From NCBI RefSeq assembly GCF_030848565.1, contig NZ_JAVDDV010000005.1, positions 1 to 64,000 on the forward strand: DNA of 64,000 bases, given 5' to 3'. The position numbers and the translations under genes are program-made. The stretch is from Natronolimnohabitans sp. A-GB9 (GTDB taxonomy: Archaea > Halobacteriota > Halobacteria > Halobacteriales > Natrialbaceae). Below, in pieces: positions 31,713-54,095 of the stretch (the first letter of the stretch is position 1; every line of letters starts with the position of its first letter). Under the pieces are notes generated by a model. The model had not been told where the DNA came from, did no database searches, and saw only the letters and a program-made list of their open reading frames with translations.

Positions 31713-32129
31713 TTCCCGTCCGGGCTCGACGCGTTCGACACCCCTCTCCCGTCGCTTGCGTCCCCGAACTCGAGATCGATGGTCGCCGCGTCGTTCCATC
31801 GCTCGAGCCCAACGAGCCGATGTGCGGTGGCGCGCGCCGATCCGCGGCGAACCGAACGTGAGTCGCGGATCGAATCGTGCGAGGGATGAGCGAGCGACTG
31901 TCGGGAGCGAGCGAATCGGCTGGGGAGGACGTGGAAATCCATGCCACCAGCACGATCGTCCGGCTATCGCCGACGCGTCGAATTTCGTCTGCCTCTTGTT
32001 TTCTGTAGTGTCTCGATGCTACTTACCGCCCAAATATCACTTTCGTCGATCACATAACGAGGACGACCACATCCGCACGACGGCGCACATTTAAGTACTG
32101 AACGGGCTATACTCGACGACGTATCACCG
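31713..32129. other. Intergenic region upstream of the AddAB-like operon
   Basis: About 417 bp without a supportable gene after the B element. ATTTAAGT near 32090 is a possible TATA box for the operon at 32130, which would give a short 5' leader. The rest shows no repeat or RNA gene I recognise. Confidence 0.5.
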
Positions 32130-34367
32130 ATGGCGTCCCCGCCCGCCTCTCTCGAGGGAACGTGTACACTCCTCTCCGAACCCGCTCCCAGCGACGTCCT
32201 CTTCGAGTGGATCGCCGAGGAGTACGCCACACTCGCCGAGACGTACGGCCCCCGGAACGTGCTGGTGTTGAAACGCCATCCGGCGGGCCTCGAGACGCTT
32301 TCCGACGCGCTCGCCGACGTCGCCGCGACCGACGGATCTCCTGGCTCACCCCGCGTCGAGTCGCTTCCGGAACACGCCTCGAAGACCCTCGAGGCCGACG
32401 ACCCGACGCTCGACCGACTCGAGTACGAAGAACGTATCGAGCTCATCTCGCTGGTGATCGACGGCGCCAGCCGGTCGGTTCCGGAGTATCTAGAGCGGGC
32501 CGCCGACCACGAGGGCTTTACCCGTGACGTCGGGCAGCTACTGCTCGAGGCGACCCGCCAGCAGCTTCGCCTCGAGGACGTCGAGCAGGCCGATCCCCAC
32601 GACTGTCTGGCCTTCCTCTATGCGATGAACGATCGGTTCCACGCGGAACTCGAGGACCGGGGCTACGTCGAGCGGGCGGACGTGATCCCTCGCACCGTCG
32701 AACTGCTCGAGGCGGACGCCGACGGCCTGCGCTCGCGGATCGGCGAGTCGATCGATGCCGTCCTCGCCGTCGAGTTCGAGGAGTTTCGCCGGCTCGATCG
32801 GCGCTACCTTGCGGCGCTGACACGCGACGCCGAACTCCGCTGTCTGGGCGAACGCCACGCCAGCGTCGAACGGACGCGAGTCGAGCCGGGTTGTATCGAA
32901 GACCACGTCGGCACCGGACTCGACGTCGAGAGACTCGAGCGAGACGGGGTTGGCGACCGATCGAGGCGACCACACCGGGCGATCACGCGATTTTTGTCGA
33001 CTGGCGCCACACCGCGAGCGGACACCGACGCGCAGCGAGACGGGGGCCGAGCGTACCGGATCCGAACCCGGACCGCACGCCAGCAAGTCCGTGCAGTTGC
33101 CACCGAGATCCAGGCGCTTCGCGACCGCTACGGCTGGAGCTACGACGAGTTCGCCGTCGCGGTTCCGCGGATCGAACGCGTGCCGGAGACGCGACGGCGG
33201 CTCCGTGAGGCCGGTCTGCCGACGGCGACCATCGGAACGCCCTCACTCGCCGAAGACCCCGTCGTCAACGAGTGCTACGCGTTCGTCACACTGCAGTGTG
33301 CCCGCGACGGTGCCGCCCTCGAGACACATCTCGACGGGTACGGACGCCGCGACGGAGTCGGCTCCGACGTCGACGATCCCGACCCAGTCGAGGTCGCACT
33401 CGATCGCCTGCATGCCCGCGTCGACGACTTCGAACTGGAGTTGCTCGAGGCCTGTGCCGGCTCGAGCGTTGCCCGTTCGCTCGAGCGCTGGATCCGGCAG
33501 ACGGACCTGAAGGGACGGATCGCCCGCGAGGAGTCGTGGGTCGACGCCCGCGAGCAGTACGAGAGCATCCGTCGAATCCTCGAGATCGCCCGGTTCGTCG
33601 AAGAGACGGACCTCGTCGGGCCCGACTGGCAGGGGCTTCGTCGGATGCTTCGCCGAACGATCCAGTACGACGCGCCCTACGTCCACGCCGTCGAGGCCCA
33701 GCCGCCGACCGGCGGCGTTACGGTCTGTCCTGCCGAGGACTGCAAGCACGACTCCCGGGAAGTCGTTTTCCTGCTCGATCTGACCGACGACAACTATCCC
33801 GGCGAGCAGTTTCTCACACAGCTATTCCCGACGGCGTGGCTCCGCGAGATGGAGACATACCCCGCCGTGACTGCGCCGAACGAGGACGATATCACGGCTA
33901 CCTTCGACACCGTCGGCGCGGACGATGTTGGCGATCCGTTCGAGACCTACCACGCCCAGCGGTCCCGCCGGCGGCTCGCACTCGCCGCCCGCGCCGCGCG
34001 GAGCCGGCTCTACTGTTGTTCCTACGAGCGCGGTTCCGGGAGCTTACAGCGAACGTACGACGAGTCACGCTACCTTCAGGGGATCGACGCGACGCCGGGA
34101 CTCGTCCTCGAGAGCGTCGACGCCGACGCGAACGCGGCGATCCACGGCGAAGAAAACGCCCTCGAGGCGCTGCTCGACCAGCCTCACGGCGAACTCGAGC
34201 GAATCCTTCGGGAAGCCAGCACCGGCGGTGAGGCCGACCTCGGTGCGACCGAGGAACTGTTCGAGGAGATCGCGGTCGTCCTCGCAGACGACGTCGATCC
34301 CGAACTCGCCGAGGCGGTCCGTTCACAGTTCGAGTTCGCCGCGGGTGAGGTGGTCCGAGATGACTGA
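32130..34367 (+). CDS. AddB/RecC-like inactivated helicase subunit
   Basis: A 745-residue protein. It has the C-terminal architecture of superfamily I helicase relatives: RTARQQVRAVATEIQALRDR and FAVAVPRIERVPETRRRL (start of the second RecA lobe), CKHDSREVVFLLDLTDDNYP with FPTAWLREMETY (AddB/RecC-like motif V region), and RRRLALAARAARSRLYCCSY (motif VI-like). No Walker A lysine is visible near the N-terminus (GTCTLLSEPAPSDVLFEWI), so it probably does not hydrolyse ATP and acts as a scaffold, like AddB or RecC. It overlaps the next gene by 8 nt, and that gene in turn overlaps the helicase-nuclease. Together they look like a split AddAB machine for processing DNA ends. Confidence 0.75.
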   Translation: MASPPASLEGTCTLLSEPAPSDVLFEWIAEEYATLAETYGPRNVLVLKRHPAGLETLSDALADVAATDGSPGSPRVESLPEHASKTLEADDPTLDRLEYEERIELISLVIDGASRSVPEYLERAADHEGFTRDVGQLLLEATRQQLRLEDVEQADPHDCLAFLYAMNDRFHAELEDRGYVERADVIPRTVELLEADADGLRSRIGESIDAVLAVEFEEFRRLDRRYLAALTRDAELRCLGERHASVERTRVEPGCIEDHVGTGLDVERLERDGVGDRSRRPHRAITRFLSTGATPRADTDAQRDGGRAYRIRTRTARQQVRAVATEIQALRDRYGWSYDEFAVAVPRIERVPETRRRLREAGLPTATIGTPSLAEDPVVNECYAFVTLQCARDGAALETHLDGYGRRDGVGSDVDDPDPVEVALDRLHARVDDFELELLEACAGSSVARSLERWIRQTDLKGRIAREESWVDAREQYESIRRILEIARFVEETDLVGPDWQGLRRMLRRTIQYDAPYVHAVEAQPPTGGVTVCPAEDCKHDSREVVFLLDLTDDNYPGEQFLTQLFPTAWLREMETYPAVTAPNEDDITATFDTVGADDVGDPFETYHAQRSRRRLALAARAARSRLYCCSYERGSGSLQRTYDESRYLQGIDATPGLVLESVDADANAAIHGEENALEALLDQPHGELERILREASTGGEADLGATEELFEEIAVVLADDVDPELAEAVRSQFEFAAGEVVRDD

Positions 34368-35436
34368 CGGCGTCTCCGACACCCCGGCGAACGCGGGAAC
34401 CGTCGGTCCCATCCCGATCGAGGGCGTCACGACGTACCTTCGGTGTCCCCGACAGTACGAGTATGCCCACGTCCAGGAACTCGAGGGCGAACGCGACGAG
34501 GCCGCGGCCACGATCGAGGACCGCGTCGCGATCCTCAAAACGGCGATCTGTGACGCCCTGGACCGTGACGAGGCCGACCGCGACCGGACGACCCTCCTCG
34601 ACGCCGCGCGAGCGCGACTCGAGACGCTCTGGGAAGACCACGACGAGCGGTTTCACTCGGTGGCCCAGCGCCGCCACGAACGACGCGTCCTCGAGGCGAC
34701 CCTCGAAGCCTACGTCGACGCGGTCGGACTCGAGCACGCGTCCGGAATCGATCGGTTGCGATCGGCGATCGATGGCGGCGAGGTGATCGGCCCGGAGTGT
34801 TCGCTCTCGAGTACGCAGTCGCTGTCCGAGACGGCGACGGCCGACGAGGGCGACGCCGTTACGATCTCGGCTCCCATCGACTACTGCTACGCCGACGGCT
34901 CGTCTATCGTCGGCGTCCGGTTCGTCCCGACGCTGCGCCCGCTTGGTCTGTTGCGCTACCGATCGGACTGGGAGGGCGCCGTCGCCGAGCAGTTTACCGA
35001 CCACTTCGATCCCGAGGCGGACGTCTTCGAGCCCTCGTTCGTCGGTGCCCTCTTCGAGACCGCCGTCGTCCTCGACGGCCTCCGGAACAGGTGTAAGCGG
35101 TTCGGGCTCGAGGACCGGACCTGTCGGTACGTCCAGATTCCACTGGCCGATCGCTCTCGGACCGCGGTCAACTGGGTCCAGGAGACGGTCGAGACGACCC
35201 TCGAACCGATCGACCTGACCGATCGCTACGTCGACCACCACACCTACGGCATGACACACGAACACCGAAACCGGACGATCGACGACCGACTCGAGCGCGT
35301 CGTCGCCGACCTGACTGCCGGCGCGTTCGATCCGACCGACCGCTGGGAGCAGCTCTCGAGTGAGGTCTGTCCGGACTGTGCGTACACGGTCTGTTGTGAG
35401 GACTATATCGCGGCGGAGGTGCGTTTCGATGGGTAA
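34360..35436 (+). CDS. PD-(D/E)XK nuclease-like protein with Cys cluster
   Basis: A 358-residue protein starting at ATG 34360, inside the end of the preceding gene. TTYLRCPRQYEYAHVQELEG (about 25-44) and CPDCAYTVCCEDY (about 337-349) hold one plus three or four cysteines spaced as in the Fe-S nuclease domains of AddB and Cas4. The nuclease core is degenerate: APIDYCYADGSSIVGVRFVP has an Asp but lacks the expected (D/E)xK in the next strand, so it may be catalytically dead and keep only a structural Fe-S role. In bacteria this domain is the C-terminus of AddB; here it is a separate gene. Both ends overlap neighbours by 8 nt. Confidence 0.72.
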   Translation: MTDGVSDTPANAGTVGPIPIEGVTTYLRCPRQYEYAHVQELEGERDEAAATIEDRVAILKTAICDALDRDEADRDRTTLLDAARARLETLWEDHDERFHSVAQRRHERRVLEATLEAYVDAVGLEHASGIDRLRSAIDGGEVIGPECSLSSTQSLSETATADEGDAVTISAPIDYCYADGSSIVGVRFVPTLRPLGLLRYRSDWEGAVAEQFTDHFDPEADVFEPSFVGALFETAVVLDGLRNRCKRFGLEDRTCRYVQIPLADRSRTAVNWVQETVETTLEPIDLTDRYVDHHTYGMTHEHRNRTIDDRLERVVADLTAGAFDPTDRWEQLSSEVCPDCAYTVCCEDYIAAEVRFDG

Positions 35437-38400
35437 CGACGCCCACGGGTCGTCCGACGGCGGCCGGGCGGCCCACGAGCCGAAAGGCAACCAGCAGGCC
35501 GTCATCGACAGCCACGCCGCCTGTACCTCAGTCGACGCCGGTGCGGGGACGGGGAAGACGACGACGATGCTCATGCGGATCGAGCGTGCGATCGAACGAG
35601 ACGACGTCGATCCCGACGACGTGTTGGTTCTCACCTTCGCGAACGAGGCCGCCGGGAGCATTCGCGATGCGGTCGCCGAGCGACTCGATCCCGAGACCGC
35701 CGCGGCGATCGACGTCTACACGTACCACTCCTTCTGTTACCGGCTGGTCAGAGAGTACGCCTACTACCTCGGCTACTCGCCCGAGTTCGACGTCGTCACC
35801 GAGCGCAAGCGCCGTCGGATCGTCGGTCGACTGCTCGCGGCCAACGACTACGGGTTCGCGACCGCCGGGCGCGGCGACGGCTCGCCGGACGACCTTACCG
35901 CCGCCGTCGACGACTTCATCCAGGCGATGAGCCAGGAGGACATCACACCCGACCAGCTCCAGGCGCAACTGCCGGCAGTGCGAACTCTCGAGCTGTGCAA
36001 CGAGTTCGTCCTCTGGCTCGAGCGAACCGCCGGCAACGACCTCTCCTTTGACAACGAGGCGCTGCGGTACTTCAACGCGGACGACCACCTCGAGGCTGCC
36101 CAGGCGTCACTCGTCGACTACGGAAAGCTACTCGAGTACTGCCGCGAGAAGATCGCGGAGGCACCGGAACAGTTCCGCGAAGACGACGTCGTCCGCGATA
36201 TCGACCGCTATCTTCGGGTACTGCAGGACTGTGTAACCAACACGATCGAGGCGCTGTCGCTCGAGGATCCGACGACGAAACAGCTGCCCCGCGCACTGTT
36301 TGGCAACGAGATCTGGCGTACGAAGACCGACCGCCTCGAACAGAGCCCGTTCGGGCGGCTCAAACACTACGTCGAGTTCCTGCGGCTGGCCCGCCACTAC
36401 ACCGACGTCTACGCCGACTACCACGACTCCCTCGAGCGCGAGCGGACGCTCGATTTCGACGAACTGGTGCGGACGGCGACCGAGTTACTCGACGACGAAG
36501 CGATCGCCGCCGAGATCACTGGACAGTGGACGCAGGTCTACTGCGACGAGTTCCAGGACACCGACGAGACCCAGTTTGCGCTGATCACCGAGCTCACCGA
36601 CGGTCCCGAGCGGCCGGATCTGCTCGCGATCGGTGACAAGGATCAGGCGATCTACGGCTGGCGAGGAACCGACCGGGAGGGGCTCGACCGACTCGCAGCG
36701 GCCTACGACGACCACGAGGCAATCGAACTCGAACTCAACTTCCGCTCCCGTCAGGAGATCCTCGATCTGACAAACCACTGTGATTACGGTTCCCAGACCT
36801 CGAAAACGCTCCGAGAGGACGGTCGAACCCCTGGGGAGTACTGGGCCGACGGCGACGTCGATACTGACGACGACGCCGATACGGCAGTCGAGACCCCGCG
36901 GGAAATCGACGCGGAGCCACCGGATCGCGTCGTCAAAATCGAGAGCGACGAACTCGGCCAGTCGACGGCCACTCAGGTCGCGACGACCGTCTCGCGGCTG
37001 TTAAACGGCGACGCCGAGAACATCTCGTCGCGATCGCTCGCGGATATCGCGGTCATCGTCCGGACGAACCGCCACGCGCAGGCAGTCGCCGACGCGCTCC
37101 GGGAGCGACGGATCCCCTACGAGATTTCGGGCTCGCCCAGCGGCGACATCGCTCCCGGGATCCAGACGCTCGTCTCGTACCTGCGCGTACTGGTCGACCC
37201 CGACGCCGACGTCCACCTCCGGCGCGTGTTGCTGTATCGGTACCGGCTCTCCGAGGCCGACCTCGCGACGCTACAGCGACGGGACGGCTCGCTGTACGAC
37301 GCGGTGATGAACACCGCCCTGTCCGACGAGCTCGACCGTCCCGAACGCGTCGAGTGTGCGCGCAAACACCTCACTGAACTCGAGGAGCTTCGCGACGTCT
37401 ACCCGCTGTCTGGGTTCGTCCGGCGGTTCCGCGAGACCACTCGTCTCGAGTGGTTTCTCACGACTGAGGAACGCGAGGAGCTCGAGCGCGTCGAGCGATT
37501 CGTCGACGCCTACACCGGCGATTCGGTGATCCAGACGTTGACGCCCGCGTTCGTCGAGGCCCTCGAGGGGGCGTTACAGGGCGGGGGGAGCGAGCGCACT
37601 CGCGGCACACAGTCGACGGACTCGGTCGACGTCATGACCGTCCACCAGGCAAAGGGCCTCGAGTTCGACACCGTACTCGTCCCCTACCTCTCCGACGAGG
37701 AGTGGTGTGTCGAACGCGACTACGCACGACGGGCTCGCTATCGGCTGCTCGCGGCGACGCTCTCGACGGAAGTCGAGTCGCCGTTGCGTGCCGATCTGGC
37801 GACCGAGACGGTCGGCGAGGAGTGGCGCGTGCTCCACGTCGCGCTTACGCGCGCCGAGAACCACCTGTTCGTCTTCGGATCGACGTACGATTACGACGGC
37901 AACGAGGACGAGCTTGCGGTCTCGACGGCCGATGCCTGTCTGGCCGACGCGATCGAATGGTCGGTCGCCGGCGAGCGGATGGGACTGTGGTCGTCGCTTC
38001 GCGAGAGCTTCGAGCGAGTGCGAGACACCTATCCCGAAACCGTCGTCGACCGAACCGACGAGCTCGCGGTCGCGGCACGCCAGACGCCGGGAACGATCAC
38101 CTACTACGCCGGCTACGACGACCGTCAGATCGAACCCCTCGAGACGCGCGAGGCGATCGAGACCGTCCATCGACTGGGGCGGCTGCTTCGCGACGAAACG
38201 CTGTTGCCAGCGGCCGACGCGGCGAGTTACGGCGCCCTCGAGCGTGAAAGCGGAGACGGGGACAAGGACCGCGACGAGCCAGGGAGAGACACGGACAGGA
38301 CGGCCCGACCACGGCGGCTCCCGAGCGGCCGGCGACTCTCGGCGCTGACGCCCGATACCGTCCGGTTCCCCGTCGAGACGCTCGCGAACGCGACCGAGCT

Positions 38401-39214
38401 GCCGGCCGCGTTGCGCCACAGCTACACCGCCCTCGAGACCCACGAGACCTGTCCACGAAAACACTACCTCGACCACGTCGTGCGGGCGTTCGACGATCCG
38501 GCCGCCGACGAGTCACCGCCCTCGCGGTCTGGGGACGGCCTCGAGTCTAGCTCCCGGATCGTCGGGACGGTCTTCCACGACGTCGCGGAGGAGGCTTTCT
38601 ACCGTGGGTATCGGACCCGCAAAGAGTGGCGTGAGGTTGCCGTCCGACAGCTCACGGCGCGAGGCCTACTCGAGCATCGCGAGGCCGTCTTGGGCTGTGT
38701 CGATCGGTTCTTCGAGGCGACCGCTCCCGCCTTCGACGCGCCCGTCGCCGACTGGGAGCCGCTGGCAGCGGAAGTATCGTTCGCGCTCGAGGACGTCGAC
38801 GGCGTGACCGGCGACGTCGTCGGCGCCGTCGACTCGATCCGGCGAACGCCGGCCGGCGACCTCGCCGTACTCGACTACAAGACGACCACAGCTCGGATCG
38901 CATCCGGGGATGCGACCCAACTGGCGCTGTACGCCCGCGCCTGCGAGGAGCGATTCGACGAACCCGTCACACGAGTCGGTTACGTCTACGTCGGTGCGGA
39001 CGCGGGGCCAGCCGTCGATCTCATCGACTCCGACGAGCTCCCGTCGTGGCCGACAGTCCGCGAGACGCTCGAAGCGGTCGACACCCCGACATACTGGGAG
39101 ACGACGCCGGGCGACCACTGCCGATACTGTCCCCACCGATCGTTAGGCTGTGCGCCCGCGGAGTACGTCAGTGAACCGGCCGGCGATGTCGACCTCGAGG
39201 CCGACGACGACTGA
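35429..39214 (+). CDS. AddA-like UvrD helicase fused to Cas4-type nuclease
   Basis: A 1261-residue protein starting at ATG 35429 (MGNDAHGSSD). Helicase motifs: Walker A DAGAGTGKTTTML (36-48), Ia VLVLTFANEAAGSIRDAV, II VYCDEFQDTDETQFAL, III IGDKDQAIYGWRG, IV ELNFRSRQEILDL, V TVHQAKGLEFDTVLVPYL and VI EEWRVLHVALTRAENHLFVF. The C-terminal nuclease has TCPRKHYLDHVVRAF (about 1007), GTVFHDVAEEAF, LAVLDYKTTTARIA (about 1148, the DxK site), ATQLALYARACEE and HCRYCPHRSLGC (about 1230), a four-Cys Fe-S arrangement. It is the active motor and nuclease of the three-gene operon and probably resects double-strand breaks or degrades foreign DNA. The acidic linker at about 470-490 is a halophile insertion. 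Confidence 0.92.
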   Translation: MGNDAHGSSDGGRAAHEPKGNQQAVIDSHAACTSVDAGAGTGKTTTMLMRIERAIERDDVDPDDVLVLTFANEAAGSIRDAVAERLDPETAAAIDVYTYHSFCYRLVREYAYYLGYSPEFDVVTERKRRRIVGRLLAANDYGFATAGRGDGSPDDLTAAVDDFIQAMSQEDITPDQLQAQLPAVRTLELCNEFVLWLERTAGNDLSFDNEALRYFNADDHLEAAQASLVDYGKLLEYCREKIAEAPEQFREDDVVRDIDRYLRVLQDCVTNTIEALSLEDPTTKQLPRALFGNEIWRTKTDRLEQSPFGRLKHYVEFLRLARHYTDVYADYHDSLERERTLDFDELVRTATELLDDEAIAAEITGQWTQVYCDEFQDTDETQFALITELTDGPERPDLLAIGDKDQAIYGWRGTDREGLDRLAAAYDDHEAIELELNFRSRQEILDLTNHCDYGSQTSKTLREDGRTPGEYWADGDVDTDDDADTAVETPREIDAEPPDRVVKIESDELGQSTATQVATTVSRLLNGDAENISSRSLADIAVIVRTNRHAQAVADALRERRIPYEISGSPSGDIAPGIQTLVSYLRVLVDPDADVHLRRVLLYRYRLSEADLATLQRRDGSLYDAVMNTALSDELDRPERVECARKHLTELEELRDVYPLSGFVRRFRETTRLEWFLTTEEREELERVERFVDAYTGDSVIQTLTPAFVEALEGALQGGGSERTRGTQSTDSVDVMTVHQAKGLEFDTVLVPYLSDEEWCVERDYARRARYRLLAATLSTEVESPLRADLATETVGEEWRVLHVALTRAENHLFVFGSTYDYDGNEDELAVSTADACLADAIEWSVAGERMGLWSSLRESFERVRDTYPETVVDRTDELAVAARQTPGTITYYAGYDDRQIEPLETREAIETVHRLGRLLRDETLLPAADAASYGALERESGDGDKDRDEPGRDTDRTARPRRLPSGRRLSALTPDTVRFPVETLANATELPAALRHSYTALETHETCPRKHYLDHVVRAFDDPAADESPPSRSGDGLESSSRIVGTVFHDVAEEAFYRGYRTRKEWREVAVRQLTARGLLEHREAVLGCVDRFFEATAPAFDAPVADWEPLAAEVSFALEDVDGVTGDVVGAVDSIRRTPAGDLAVLDYKTTTARIASGDATQLALYARACEERFDEPVTRVGYVYVGADAGPAVDLIDSDELPSWPTVRETLEAVDTPTYWETTPGDHCRYCPHRSLGCAPAEYVSEPAGDVDLEADDD

Positions 39215-39275: not shown

Positions 39276-39695
39276 TCACATGGACATGAGGACGACCGCG
39301 AGCACGGCGAAGACGATTCCAAGTCCTTTCCGGGGCGTCAACGCTTCCTCGAGAGCGACGATCCCGATGACAGAGCTGACGGCGATGAACAGCCCGTAGA
39401 TCGGAACGACGACGCTGACGGGCCCGAGTTCCAGCGCACGGTAGTAGGCGAGCAGTCCAACGGCGAGCAAGAGCCCCCAGGCGACGATATGGGGAGTCTT
39501 CGGATGCGAGAGATACGGTCGTGGCGAGATCCCCTGATAGTACATCAAGAGCCCGATCAGGACGAGCATGACCGTATTCGACATGAAGACCGCGGCCGTA
39601 CTCGGGATCGTCTCCATCGCGACTTTCAACAACGGGGCGACGACGCTGTACGCGGCGAACGCGACAACCGAGAGCAACAGGTACCGTCGCCTCAT
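39276..39695 (-). CDS. EamA half transporter, second of pair
   Basis: A 139-residue protein with four hydrophobic helices: YLLLSVVAFAAYSVVAPLL, AAVFMSNTVMLVLIGLLMYY, HIVAWGLLLAVGLLAYYRAL and VSVVVPIYGLFIAVSSVIGI, then GLGIVFAVLAVVLMSM. It retains the EamA signature ALELGPVSVVVPIYG. Its ATG overlaps the stop of the upstream half-transporter gene by one base (TGATG), so the two halves are made together and probably pair as a heterodimer. Substrate unknown; the family exports metabolites or drugs. The tandem origin is obvious from the shared LELGPVSxVVPIxGxFI motif. Confidence 0.88.
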   Translation of the reverse strand: MRRRYLLLSVVAFAAYSVVAPLLKVAMETIPSTAAVFMSNTVMLVLIGLLMYYQGISPRPYLSHPKTPHIVAWGLLLAVGLLAYYRALELGPVSVVVPIYGLFIAVSSVIGIVALEEALTPRKGLGIVFAVLAVVLMSM

Positions 39696-40114
39696 CAGTC
39701 ACCACCCGCAGTGAGGACGATCGCGAGCACTGCACAGGCGATCCCAGCCACTCGAGTCGCCGTCAGTGACTCGTCGAGAACGAGGATACCGAGAACCGAA
39801 CTGCCGACGATGAACATGCCGAAGATCGGAACCACGATACTCACGGGCCCGATCTCGAGGGCGGCCGTATACGCCAGGATCCCGACTGCCAGAAAGGCAC
39901 CCGCGACGTAGACGTAGCCCGCCTCGAGGGAGACCGCGTAGGACGGATCGGCGGTTCCGGTCGCCACCATGACGACGGAGGCGATCGCGAGGAAGACGAC
40001 CGTCGCGAGAAACAGTCCCGGCGCCGGCGGGACGTCTTGCATGACGATACTCGTCAACGGTGCGACGAAGGAGTAGGCGAGAAGCGCCAGCAAGACCCAC
40101 AGCAAGTACTCCAT
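39695..40114 (-). CDS. EamA half transporter, first of pair
   Basis: A 139-residue membrane protein with helices LLWVLLALLAYSFVAPLTSI, LFLATVVFLAIASVVMVAT, VYVAGAFLAVGILAYTAAL, VSIVVPIFGMFIVGSSVLGI and VAGIACAVLAIVLTAGG. The EamA motif is ALEIGPVSIVVPIFG. It is the upstream partner of the gene ending at 39276 (1 nt overlap). Two four-to-five-helix halves would rebuild the ten-helix DMT fold, the ancestral state of this superfamily. Promoter probably in the 139 bp gap shared with the divergent NUDIX gene. Another, single half transporter lies at 16848. Confidence 0.88.
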   Translation of the reverse strand: MEYLLWVLLALLAYSFVAPLTSIVMQDVPPAPGLFLATVVFLAIASVVMVATGTADPSYAVSLEAGYVYVAGAFLAVGILAYTAALEIGPVSIVVPIFGMFIVGSSVLGILVLDESLTATRVAGIACAVLAIVLTAGGD

Positions 40115-41052: not shown

Positions 41053-41661
41053 ATGGTCGATACGACTCGTCGGCGGACACTCGTCGCATCAGTTGTCGGA
41101 ACGATCGGCGCACTCGCTGGGTGTCTGGACGGAAGTTTCGATAACGATCCCGACGAAGACAGCGAGACCGAAGACGAGATGTTCGGAGACGACTCGGAAG
41201 CGGTCGGTGATGACGAGGCTGTCGACGAGGATGCCGACGATGACGGTGAGGACGGCGATGTCGATGCCCAAAACGAGAGCGAGAACGCCGACGAGGACGA
41301 CGACGAGGATGAGGAAGACGACGGAGATGGGGATGAGGACGACGAGGAAGATGACGACGAGGATGAAGACGATGAGGGCGATGGCGAGGACGACGAGGAT
41401 GAGGAAGACGACGGAGATGGGGACGATGACGACGAGGATGAGGACGATGAGGGCGATGGCGAGGACGGCGAGGACGAGGAGGACGAGGATGATGACGACG
41501 AGGATGAGGAAGACGACGGAGATGGGGACGATGACGACGAGGATGAGGACGATGAGGGCGATGGCGAGGACGGCGAGGACGAGGAGGACGAGGATGATGA
41601 CGACGAAGATGAGGACGACGAGGACGATGACGAGGACGACGATGATGACGAAGACGAGTGA
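41053..41661 (+). CDS. Poly-acidic Tat lipoprotein
   Basis: A 202-residue protein. Residues 1-24 are a Tat lipoprotein signal: TTRRRTLVASVVGTIGALAG with Cys24 of the lipobox LAGC. Nearly everything after residue 75 is only Asp, Glu and Gly, about 125 residues, coded by GAC/GAG/GAT-rich tandem repeats (90 and 105 bp periods, starting at 41302, 41392 and 41497). The mature protein is thus a long, flexible, highly negative tether on the cell surface. It could bind divalent cations or keep a hydration layer at high salt. There is no globular domain. Poly-acidic tails of this length are unusual even for haloarchaea. The repeats may expand or contract between strains. Confidence 0.75.
   Translation: MVDTTRRRTLVASVVGTIGALAGCLDGSFDNDPDEDSETEDEMFGDDSEAVGDDEAVDEDADDDGEDGDVDAQNESENADEDDDEDEEDDGDGDEDDEEDDDEDEDDEGDGEDDEDEEDDGDGDDDDEDEDDEGDGEDGEDEEDEDDDDEDEEDDGDGDDDDEDEDDEGDGEDGEDEEDEDDDDEDEDDEDDDEDDDDDEDE
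41302..41640. repeat. Tandem repeats coding the Asp/Glu tail
   Basis: A segment beginning GACGAGGATGAGGAAGACGA recurs at 41302, 41392 and 41497 (spacings 90 and 105 bp). The last two units are nearly identical over about 100 bp. All units stay in frame. Confidence 0.8.
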
Positions 41662-51750: not shown

Positions 51751-52167
51751 TTACCGATCTCGATCGCGGATGCCACCGGCCTCGATCGCCGCTTCGCGAA
51801 TCGTCTCGCAGTCGGGAGCGGCGAGCAAGTGGGCCGGACAGTCACAGTCGGAGGAACCGAACTCCGGAACCGGTTCGCCCGGTAGCGTGGCAGCCAGTTC
51901 ACACTCCCGAGCGGCGTCGGGGAACGTGATCGCTGCCTCGAGTCCGGTCTCGGGATGGCCGAGCAGGTAGTCGATGTGCCAGTGGCGCGTCTCACGGTCG
52001 CCGCGGGCGAGTTCCCGGTGGCGATCGAGTCGGGCGAAGCCGCCGGATCCGAACGCGCTGCCGACGTAGGCGTAAGTGCCCGCCGAAAAATCACAGGTGC
52101 CGAGGGCCCCAACGTCGATGCTCGTCGCTCGAGGCACGTCGACGAGGAGGACGTACGTTCCGCCCAT
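51751..52167 (-). CDS. GIY-YIG nuclease family (DUF123-type) protein
   Basis: A 138-residue protein. The start is ATG 52167 (MGGTYVLLVDVPR). The two-strand GIY-YIG hallmark is GTYVLLVDV (3-11) and GTYAYVGSAFGSGGFARLDR (30-49), followed by the catalytic-type Arg and RHRELARGDRETRHWHIDYL. The last segment HWHIDYLLGHP is typical of the DUF123 subgroup found alone or fused to archaeal endonuclease III. The C-terminal half has a Cys pair in GSSDCDCPAHLLAAPD that may bind a metal. It likely acts on DNA (repair), which is inference from family. The neighbouring genes are unrelated. Isolated between A and B elements. Confidence 0.88.
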   Translation of the reverse strand: MGGTYVLLVDVPRATSIDVGALGTCDFSAGTYAYVGSAFGSGGFARLDRHRELARGDRETRHWHIDYLLGHPETGLEAAITFPDAARECELAATLPGEPVPEFGSSDCDCPAHLLAAPDCETIREAAIEAGGIRDRDR

Positions 52168-52206
52168 ATCGGGTATCGAACTCGAGGCGGCAAAAACGAA
52201 CGTGGT

Positions 52207-52291
52207 TCGTACGGACTGCGGGACCGATCTCCCGCCGATCTCCAGCACGGAGTCGGCAATCGGCGGGACGTGACGACAGGGGACCGTATCA
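52207..52291. repeat. A-family palindromic element, copy 9
   Basis: Starts TCGTACGGACTGCGGGACCG and ends AGGGGACCGTATCA; central CCGCCGATC...GGCAATCGGCGGG dyad. Reverse orientation relative to copy 5. Confidence 0.75.
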
Positions 52292-52361
52292 CAGCCGCTG
52301 GAAAGTATCAGACCGGTTCTACGGGCGATACGGGATCGGTGGCCGTCAGTGCCGAAGTTCG

Positions 52362-54095
52362 TTAGCGTTCGTCGCGACGCTCCTCGTCGTCGTGCTCCGG
52401 CAGATTCTCGTGGACGTGTCGACGGTTGCTCATGTCCTCGTCGGGTCGCTGGGCGTGATGGCGCTCCTCGCCACCGCCGGATCGTTGGGATTGTCCCAGG
52501 TCTCGATCCCGATCCTGATCGCGGCCCATCTCCTGCTCTCGGTCCCGGCCTCGAGTGCGGTCGAACTCCGGCTCACTGGTCCAGTCACCGCTCTGGGATC
52601 GTTGCTCGTGTCGGCGGTGCTCGAGGCCGCCACCGGACCGATCGTCGCCGCGGTAGTTGGTGTCACCACGGTCGCCGGATCGGTCTTGGCTGCCGCGTCG
52701 CCCGGGCTGATTTTGGGGCCCCTCGTCACGTCGACGCTGGCGCTGGTCATCGCTCTGGCGGGACTCCCTCCGGCGCTCGTGACCGCGCTGGAAGCCCTGC
52801 TGGCTCCCCCCACGCTGTGAGTCGTCGTCGTGTCGGCCACCCTGGCCGCGGTGACGGCGCTGCTCCTGGTGGGGGCCTCGATAGCCACGTTCCCGGCGGT
52901 CCTGTTGCTCCTGTTGGCCCTGCATCTCCGTTCGACCGCGGGATTGGCGCCGGTCGGTGCCGCGGTCCTGTCGGCCGCCTTGCTGGCCTCGCTGCTGCTG
53001 GCGTCGGTCGCCTTGTTGGCCTCGCTGCTGCTGGCGTCGGTCGCCTTGTTGGCCTCGCTGCTGCTGGCGTCGGTCGCCTTGTTGGCCTCGTTGCTGTTGC
53101 TGGCGTCGGTCGCCTTGCTGGCCTCGTTGCTGTTGCTGGCGTCGGTCACCGCCCTGTTGGCCTCGCTGCTGTTGCTGGCTCCGGTCCTGTCCCTGGTGGC
53201 CCTGCTGACCACCCGGCGGCTGCTGGCTTCGCCGTTGCTGTTGTTGCTCGCCGCCAAACTGCGATCGCTCGCCCTGATCTTGACGGGTCGTTCGCCGTGC
53301 GACACCGCCGTACTCGAGGTCCGCCTCGTCGGTTACGTCGGGTTCGAACTGACTGCCGGTGTGTTCCTGCCGTTCGCGACGGGACTCCTCGCGGCCGCCG
53401 TGTTCGGCGTACTGGCCTTGTCGTTCGCGCCCCTGCTGGCTCCGTCGTCCCTGCTGGCCCTCTCGTTCGTGTCCCTGCTGACCGCTTCGTTCGCGTCGTG
53501 GCTGTCCACCGCTCGAGCCGGCCTCGGGCTGTCGACTGTACTCCTGCTGTCGTTGTCGTCCCCCCATCGGCTGCTGGCGCTGCTTACTACGTCCCTGACC
53601 ACGCTGCTGGTGGCCTTCTCGACCGAACTGTTCGTCTCCCTGTCGCCCGCGGCGCTGTCGTGGTTGCTGTCCTCGCTGACTCTGTCGATCCTGCTGGGGC
53701 GGCGTCTCCTGTCGACCGCGTTCCTGCCGGCCGTAGCTCTGCTGTCCTTCTTGGCCGTATCCCTGCTGTCTCTGCTGACCCGTCGTCGACTGTCCGCGTT
53801 GTCGACCGCCCGTCGGCTGCTGACCCTGTTGACTCTGTCCGCCGCCGTGAGCGTCCTGTCGACGGGCTTCGCCGCCGTACTCGAGCGATCCGTCACGAAT
53901 CGCGTCCGTTTCGAAGCCCTGCTCACGGTGCTGGTCCCGTCGCGAGCGGTCGGTCCGTTCGCGTCCGGCCTCCCCGCGTTGTCCTCGCTGTCGATCGCCG
54001 CCGCCGCGGCCGCCCTGCTGGCGACGGTCGCCGCCCTCACTCGAGTGCTCGGTACCCCGATCGCTCGTTCGTCGCCGGTCGTTTCGGTCGTTCAT
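52362..54095 (-). CDS. Arg/Gln/Gly-rich repeat protein (disordered)
   Basis: A 577-residue protein built almost entirely of Arg, Gln, Gly, Asp, Glu and Ser, strongly basic in parts, which is unlike the acidic neighbours. About six tandem units of the form DRRQQQRGQQG lie at 52982-53170 (33 bp period). Two copies of the motif FE(T/P)D...LEYGG(E/V)ARR occur (about residues 60-80 and 255-275), using the ctcgag codon pair of true haloarchaeal genes, which supports this strand and frame. All other frames are also open because of the composition. There is no signal peptide or membrane span. RNA- or nucleic-acid-binding condensate behaviour is plausible for such RGQ-rich chains, but this is inference. 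Confidence 0.65.
   Translation of the reverse strand: MNDRNDRRRTSDRGTEHSSEGGDRRQQGGRGGGDRQRGQRGEAGRERTDRSRRDQHREQGFETDAIRDGSLEYGGEARRQDAHGGGQSQQGQQPTGGRQRGQSTTGQQRQQGYGQEGQQSYGRQERGRQETPPQQDRQSQRGQQPRQRRGRQGDEQFGREGHQQRGQGRSKQRQQPMGGRQRQQEYSRQPEAGSSGGQPRRERSGQQGHEREGQQGRRSQQGRERQGQYAEHGGREESRRERQEHTGSQFEPDVTDEADLEYGGVARRTTRQDQGERSQFGGEQQQQRRSQQPPGGQQGHQGQDRSQQQQRGQQGGDRRQQQQRGQQGDRRQQQQRGQQGDRRQQQRGQQGDRRQQQRGQQGDRRQQQRGQQGGRQDRGTDRRQSRGRTEMQGQQEQQDRRERGYRGPHQEQRRHRGQGGRHDDDSQRGGSQQGFQRGHERRRESRQSDDQRQRRRDEGPQNQPGRRGSQDRSGDRGDTNYRGDDRSGGGLEHRRHEQRSQSGDWTSEPEFDRTRGRDREQEMGRDQDRDRDLGQSQRSGGGEERHHAQRPDEDMSNRRHVHENLPEHDDEERRDER
52982..53170. repeat. 33-bp tandem repeats in the RGQ-rich gene
   Basis: The plus-strand unit contains CTGCTGCTGGCGTCGGTCGC and returns every 33 bp (11 codons) about six times, with occasional 3 bp additions that extend the Gln run. 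All lengths keep the reading frame. Confidence 0.8.

Follow-up and report, generated by a model that had tools for sequence, protein, structure and literature searches.

The three co-directional genes at positions 32130-39214 of the window, by which we mean the whole 64,000-nucleotide stretch of DNA analysed here (the haloarchaeon Natronolimnohabitans sp. A-GB9, contig NZ_JAVDDV010000005.1, positions 1-64,000 of the forward strand), probably encode a single ATP-driven machine for the processing of DNA ends, of the AddAB/RecBCD kind, that consists of three polypeptides and whose chromosomal version in the window would mainly serve DNA-end repair. We refer to the genes as g1, g2, and g3, and call a g2 "dead" or "intact" when it lacks or carries D-x-K. 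The three proteins would bind each other as a complex in which g3 supplies the only motor, a 3'-to-5' superfamily 1A (SF1A) helicase, and the only working nuclease, which would do all of the cutting, and in which g1 and g2 together represent a split AddB that binds and guides the DNA end. In this complex, g1 would be a dead-helicase scaffold through which the 3' strand is threaded, and g2 would be the former AddB nuclease, folded around an iron–sulphur (Fe-S) staple and unable to cut. Being folded but no longer cutting, g2 would keep hold of the broken end and direct the 5' strand, like the inactivated nuclease domain of RecC. Direct support for this reading comes from the order of the genes, from their folds and motif states, from a g2 state that changes once on each of two trees, and from purifying selection.

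All features described here lie on the forward strand. The genes occupy positions 32130-34367 (g1, 745 amino acids), 34360-35436 (g2, 358 amino acids), and 35429-39214 (g3, 1261 amino acids), and they overlap by 8 nt at both joins (atgactga at 34360-34367 and atgggtaa at 35429-35436), in agreement with a first-pass annotation that had been made from the sequence alone; the gene starts are inferred, and the calls of neighbouring genes are in part mechanical open reading frames (ORFs). That annotation had regarded g1 as an AddB- or RecC-like scaffold without Walker A, and g2 as a split and degenerate second nuclease with Fe-S cysteines and no DxK, an idea that folds unrelated to AddB would have overturned. 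Both descriptions are borne out by the following analyses, and the AddB idea survived the prediction of the monomer structures.

Single-sequence searches with g1 gave no match in Pfam, NCBIfam or PDB sequences, but the g1 profile ranked AddB first among PDB sequences (E 1.1e-7), and Pfam ADDB_N was matched by 6 of 52 g1 family members (best E 0.0016). The g1 monomer model, built from a 52-sequence alignment (predicted local distance difference test, pLDDT, 84; predicted template modelling score, pTM, 0.83), has the fold of a dead superfamily 1 (SF1) helicase and aligns with AddB chains such as 3u4q_B and 4cej_B over 610-620 residues, covering AddB residues 2-767 (Z 22.0-22.4). The Walker A pattern [AG]xxxxGK[ST] was found within the first 150 amino acids of none of the 133 distinct g1 relatives, as against 128 of 128 for g3. 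For g2, the best match of the monomer model (pLDDT 90) was the C-terminal half of AddB, residues 776-1138, with 285 residues aligned (Z 14.8), and Pfam PDDEXK_1 was recognized with its best stretch at residues 23-120 (25.3 bits). The alignment places the first of four conserved cysteines, Cys29, at 34444-34446 (codon position computed) and the others in a CxxCx5C motif at 35368-35397 (Cys337, 340, and 346). A single-sequence search with g2 informed little, and because the g2 profile gave only chance-looking matches among PDB sequences (lysozyme, potassium channel), the assignment of g2 rests on fold, motifs, and the Pfam match. RecC chains ranked lower down in the Foldseek search with g1 and were among the last rows for g2 (Z about 6). 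The fit of g1 to AddB 2-767, the fit of g2 to AddB 776-1138, and the first rank of AddB in the g1 profile search together indicate that, on the predicted models, g1 and g2 span AddB nearly end to end without overlap, and that AddB is divided here at the helicase/nuclease border.

In g3, Pfam recognizes the UvrD N and C domains (UvrD-helicase and UvrD_C) and PDDEXK_1 at residues 998-1238, and together with NCBIfam, PDB sequence matches, and the alignment this describes a UvrD/AddA-like SF1A helicase fused to a Cas4-type Fe-S nuclease. The motifs read as Walker A (GAGTGKT, 35540-35560) and motif II (DEFQDT, 36545-36562, also in the alignment), and the nuclease domain at 38420-39151, with DYK at 38873-38881, has an intact H/D/DYK/Q set and four cysteines: H1050, D1135, D1149, K1151, Q1164, and the cysteines are invariant in 128 of 128 relatives. 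The first-pass view of g3 as an AddA-like helicase with an intact Cas4-type nuclease thus holds for the nuclease and for the SF1 helicase, and needs refinement with regard to the helicase family, as detailed below. Matches of g3 to GajB in PADLOC were set aside as general UvrD similarity.

The state of g2 divides the family into two clades. Removal of entries that did not differ over the compared tail reduced 160 g2 entries to 133 distinct proteins, of which 58 carry D...D-x-K and 75 do not. Trees were calculated from 42 of the available operons (20 intact, 22 dead), with the g3 tree rooted by archaeal UvrD-Cas4 proteins. On the g3 tree, the intact operons form one clade (Shimodaira–Hasegawa-like approximate likelihood ratio test, SH-aLRT, 98) and the dead operons its sister clade (97), and the g2 state changes once on this tree and once on the g1 tree. 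The rooting is less certain than the division into clades, because the outgroup joins on a long branch (2.21) and there are two long rows. Since the motif is present in AddB, in Cas4, and in the outgroup, a loss of the catalytic residues appears the likelier direction of change than a gain, and this loss may mark a shift from the destruction of invading DNA to a milder processing.

Several observations weigh against an AddAB-like repair machine. UvrD/Rep chains surpass AddB by Z for the g1 model (26.3 with 518 residues aligned; at most 532 aligned), although the longest alignments are those with AddB. Foldseek alone gave weak matches for g2, with AddB still first (best E 0.006). The g3 helicase is not a close AddA: it scores higher with PcrA (200.7 bits) and Rep (187.4) than with addA_Gpos (150.3), whose NCBIfam equivalog cut-off is 707.65, and thus stays far under the curated addA/recB cut-offs. 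The operon is dispensable, as 8 of the 10 listed genomes of the same family without it are 99% complete, and a UvrA gene lies near 19 of 45 window-type loci, yet no functional tie connects the operon to repair.

The window subclade lies at a fixed chromosomal address. When 25 window-type operons were compared with elongation factor 2 (EF-2), Mantel r was 0.52 (g1), 0.46 (g2), and 0.60 (g3), and none of 300 pairs was closer than in EF-2. A window-type g1 query against 72,556 plasmids returned 16 records, all below 60% identity and therefore sister-clade copies. Of the 45 window-type loci, 39 have a CBS-domain gene close by, 14 a prolyl-tRNA synthetase (ProRS) gene, and 10 a thiamine pyrophosphate (TPP) enzyme gene, in addition to the UvrA gene mentioned above, and none of these lies near the 29 sister-clade loci.

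For 22 operons of the intact sister clade, the correlation with EF-2 was lower (r 0.27-0.29), and 52, 33, and 72 of 231 pairs (g1, g2, and g3) were closer than in EF-2, which indicates horizontal transfer. A sister-clade query matched 16 plasmid records, 10 of them with at least 80% identity, and 14 of these loci were opened (H26, which has no annotation, and H30, a partial match, were left out). BREX-5 is found in two of the 14, type I restriction-modification (R-M) in one, type III-like R-M in four (annotated in one, with the same gene sizes and order in three), Piwi together with a phospholipase D (PLD) family gene in one, a nuclease-ATPase pair with SIR2 in one, and conjugation-type genes in three (two with an annotated VirB4 or TraM, and a third that resembles them in order); two have no telling neighbours. 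By similarity search, prokaryotic Argonaute (pAgo) and PLD were each detected in 7 of the 29 named sister-clade loci; neither was detected in any of the 45 window-type or 5 Natrialba-type loci. At L214, L215, L216, L220, L221, and the plasmid locus L257, pAgo, PLD, g1, g2, and g3 follow each other in this order on one strand, with spacings of a few nucleotides where they were read (L220) and with a pAgo that reaches 1085 bits in PADLOC at L214; such a run possibly is a five-gene defence operon.

These sister-clade neighbourhoods contain further genes. In all six loci with the five-gene run, a divergent AAA/DUF4143 ATPase gene lies upstream of it. On a Natrinema zhouii plasmid (L259:7188-11433), a "DNA repair exonuclease" gene and an AAA ATPase gene are directly upstream of an intact operon, and this pair may be Mre11-Rad50-like. 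A 375-amino-acid protein without Pfam or PADLOC match is encoded convergently to g3 at L201:15324-16448 and in relatives of this locus, namely in 3 of the 29 sister-clade loci and 7 of the 14 plasmid loci.

With plasmid-borne relatives beside BREX-5, R-M, and pAgo-PLD genes, and with a patchy occurrence in 31 of 61 relatives, it could be argued that the window operon is itself an anti-plasmid or antiviral system, as the sister clade probably is, and was merely relocated to the chromosome. We consider this unlikely, since six neighbour families of the sister clade occur in 0 of the 45 window-type loci, where the CBS gene is instead the usual neighbour, since window-type inheritance tracks EF-2, and since the plasmid search yielded sister-clade copies. 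The suggestion in the first-pass annotation that the system possibly acts on foreign DNA hence suits the intact sister clade, with its plasmids, BREX-5, R-M, and Argonaute-PLD genes, and it suits the window subclade less well, for which we prefer DNA-end repair as the main role of the chromosomal version. A wider scenario, which we offer tentatively and would not yet bet on, is that the sister clade represents a mobile DNA-shredding helicase-nuclease that partners with Argonaute-PLD, BREX-5, and R-M systems, and that the window clade descends from it as a tamed, chromosomal form in which a single event removed one of two nucleases; the step from AddB to RecC would then have been repeated independently in haloarchaea, with both states still living.

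Among 61 relatives' genomes, g1 was matched in 31, g2 in 30, and g3 in 31 (g3 at E 1e-60), and the genes are therefore no chance reading. In 35 operons, comprising the window and 34 loci, all three genes are side by side in every case; the g2 of L117 was read by frame and carries DYK. Where gene joins were measured, the overlap was 4 or 8 nt in most cases. A collection of 84,980 species, scanned with patterns derived from haloarchaeal sequences, yielded 79 named loci (best 80 of 90 matches), which are all haloarchaeal by title; g1 and g2 adjoin in all 79, and g3 comes next in 78, with the remaining locus ending at a contig edge. At L229, the g3 frame starts late and may be broken. In a class sample, g1 was found in 107 of 292 genomes, and in a phylum sample, the g1 profile matched 38 of 392, including seven partial matches outside the order (31-44 bits). 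Six of these seven come from genomes of one family, and the seventh is G613. Of those that were read, L242 and L243 proved to be single UvrD-Cas4-like fusions, and the ORF list of G613 shows a canonical AddB beside a nuclease-less AddA. With three of the seven opened by ORF list, no split relative outside the haloarchaea was found, nor were there relatives in the viral contigs or phages searched. At L244:1378-7622, an archaeal AddB (1141 amino acids, with DYK and cysteines) is encoded beside a 952-amino-acid AddA that by eye has no nuclease domain, which is the opposite single-nuclease state to that of the window.

These data also bear on the idea that g3 works alone as a helicase-nuclease of the UvrD-Cas4 type, with g1 and g2 as regulators or recognition factors and without an AddAB-like complex. 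The best scores of g3 with PcrA, Rep, and UvrD models are in line with it, and UvrD-Cas4 fusions stand alone in other archaea, as at L242 and L243 and as described in the literature (PMC5704561). Nevertheless, we judge a solitary g3 improbable: g1 and g2 were never found apart from g3 in the sets of 35 operons and 79 loci except at contig ends, their folds are complementary AddB halves that meet at residues 767/776, and the pairwise distances of g1, g2, and g3 correlate with 0.85-0.98.

One could also imagine that the window g2 still cuts DNA by means of an active site rearranged around Asp174 (34879-34881), the one catalytic-type residue that is kept in 133 of 133 distinct g2 proteins, including all 75 dead ones. 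This appears very unlikely, as the other residues were exchanged together and for conserved rather than random replacements. Gln is present in all 58 intact proteins and the motif-I His in 56; among the 75 dead proteins, His is replaced by Arg in 70, the Lys place by Val in 66, and Gln by Glu in 60, and the place of D-x-K in the window reads R187-F188-V189 (34918-34926). Among these dead proteins, an acidic residue at the place of the second metal ligand is seen only at L333, where the Lys is lacking. Close g2 pairs have ratios of nonsynonymous to synonymous substitution rates (dN/dS) of 0.11-0.38 in the dead clade (nine pairs) and 0.09-0.20 in the intact clade (four pairs), and the dead-clade pairs range from 0.09 to 0.38 across all three genes, which points to purifying selection on the dead clade. 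These ratios, together with four Fe-S-type cysteines in 74 of 75 dead g2 proteins (the remaining one is truncated) and the spread of the dead clade over several families, already largely refute the view that the operon is decaying and on its way out, which has next to no probability left even though g2 lacks its catalytic residues and isolated broken copies with an in-frame TGA exist in relatives (L053, L072, and L085).

The operon would not be the only system for end resection in its host. The first-pass annotation had proposed a pathway in addition to HerA-NurA with Mre11-Rad50, which archaea normally use for end resection, and this is plausible, as the window genome has its own NurA-family gene (C23:255016-255960) and a HerA-like DUF87 gene (C23:258351-259061), about 2.4 kb apart. 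Of 116 haloarchaeal genomes, 115 have a Pfam match to the NurA family, and so does the control, Haloferax volcanii; the latter match disagrees with the statement that H. volcanii is without HerA and NurA (PMC7776575). The operon is a candidate for a haloarchaeal end-processing machine beyond Mre11-Rad50, and a candidate, too, for the helicase that was noted without a name close to Argonaute operons of haloarchaea. Among open-access papers, we found no title or abstract opening that describes AddB in split form or a haloarchaeal operon resembling AddAB, which does not prove that no such paper exists. One archaeal family tree contains both nuclease states, and the change between them falls on one branch, so the effect of the death of a scaffold nuclease can be tested by comparing genes from the two clades.

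Around the window operon, genes for a CBS protein, a TPP enzyme, two EamA proteins, a NUDIX protein, and ProRS are found. A TATA-like element (tttaagta, 32090-32097) lies 33-40 nt before the ATG of g1 and, as read from the sequence, is likely the operon promoter. The two EamA genes (39276-40114) adjoin, are of half size with 139 amino acids each, and probably encode a paired small transporter. An ORF of 202 amino acids at 41053-41661 has a lipoprotein-like start and ends in a long Asp/Glu-rich tail, and the region 52001-54000 has a strong AT skew (-0.444) that differs from the remaining window.

Among known systems, the haloarchaeal APAP pair of long-A pAgo and PLD restricts plasmid and virus (PMC11442185). 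A pAgo and a PLD-family gene directly precede g1-g3 on the same strand in six sister-clade loci, whereas neither lies beside the operon in the window clade (0 of 45). A helicase gene near some ago-agaP operons was remarked on in the available part of that paper, where it is not named AddAB-like (PMC11442185). The UvrD-Cas4 fusions of the pfam12705 branch, reported in defence contexts, share with g3 the fusion of a UvrD helicase with a Cas4-like Fe-S nuclease, but are described as stand-alone or beside R-M genes and not with a split AddB (PMC5704561).

The nuclease of AdnA is the next fold after AddB for g2 (Z 14.3), and g3 matches the AdnB chain by sequence. Both subunits of AdnAB carry ATPase motifs, whereas g1 is without Walker A. 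Among the genomes surveyed, AdnAB is reported only in Actinobacteria (PMC6452273).

A close likeness is to bacterial AddAB (RexAB), in which one SF1A motor feeds two nucleases, that of AddA for the 3' strand and that of AddB for the 5' strand, and in which AddB uses its dead helicase to scan for Chi (PMC4824097). The AddB fold extends across g1 and g2 as a dead helicase scaffold plus an Fe-S nuclease domain, and the partner is one SF1A motor that bears a nuclease at its C-terminus, as in that architecture (PMC4824097). The four conserved cysteines of g2 are arranged as in the AddB staple, which is needed for structural integrity (PMC3466216), and the g2 cluster is predicted from them. Differences are that the AddB parts are divided between two genes that overlap, in the window as in all other loci examined, that the AddB-side nuclease is dead in the window clade (75 of 133 without the motif, as opposed to the 58 of the sister clade), and that the g3 nuclease has a Cys cluster and the g3 helicase is nearer to UvrD/PcrA by family score. 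Canonical AddAB also exists in haloarchaea: Halobacterium salinarum plasmid PHS3 (L246:8536-15220) encodes an unsplit AddB (1018 amino acids) and an AddA-like protein (1211 amino acids), and a BREX-5 PglZ gene lies some 7 kb from the pair. With a methanogen-type AddB as the query, matches were obtained on 17 haloarchaeal plasmids. In the PHS3 pair, both nucleases keep DYK, AddB is unsplit, and AddA lacks the Cys cluster of g3. We rejected the PHS3 pair as the direct parent of the window operon, as it is too distant (g3 and its AddA share about 26% identity, E 8e-23).

With regard to its state, the window machine resembles RecBCD, whose RecC contains an inactivated nuclease domain that became a DNA hoop, and an AddAB-like enzyme was proposed as the stage of RecBCD before this inactivation (PMC1185551). 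Both have an inactivated helicase and an inactivated nuclease-like domain in the scaffold, and one working nuclease. None of the eight scanned neighbours is a helicase, so RecD is not encoded beside the operon; the rest of the genome was not searched for it. Differently from RecC, the window g2 keeps its Fe-S cysteines, and the window scaffold is split. Because the sister clade is intact, the RecC-like dead state looks convergent, and by sequence the window machine looks to have arrived independently at the RecC state while retaining the staple.

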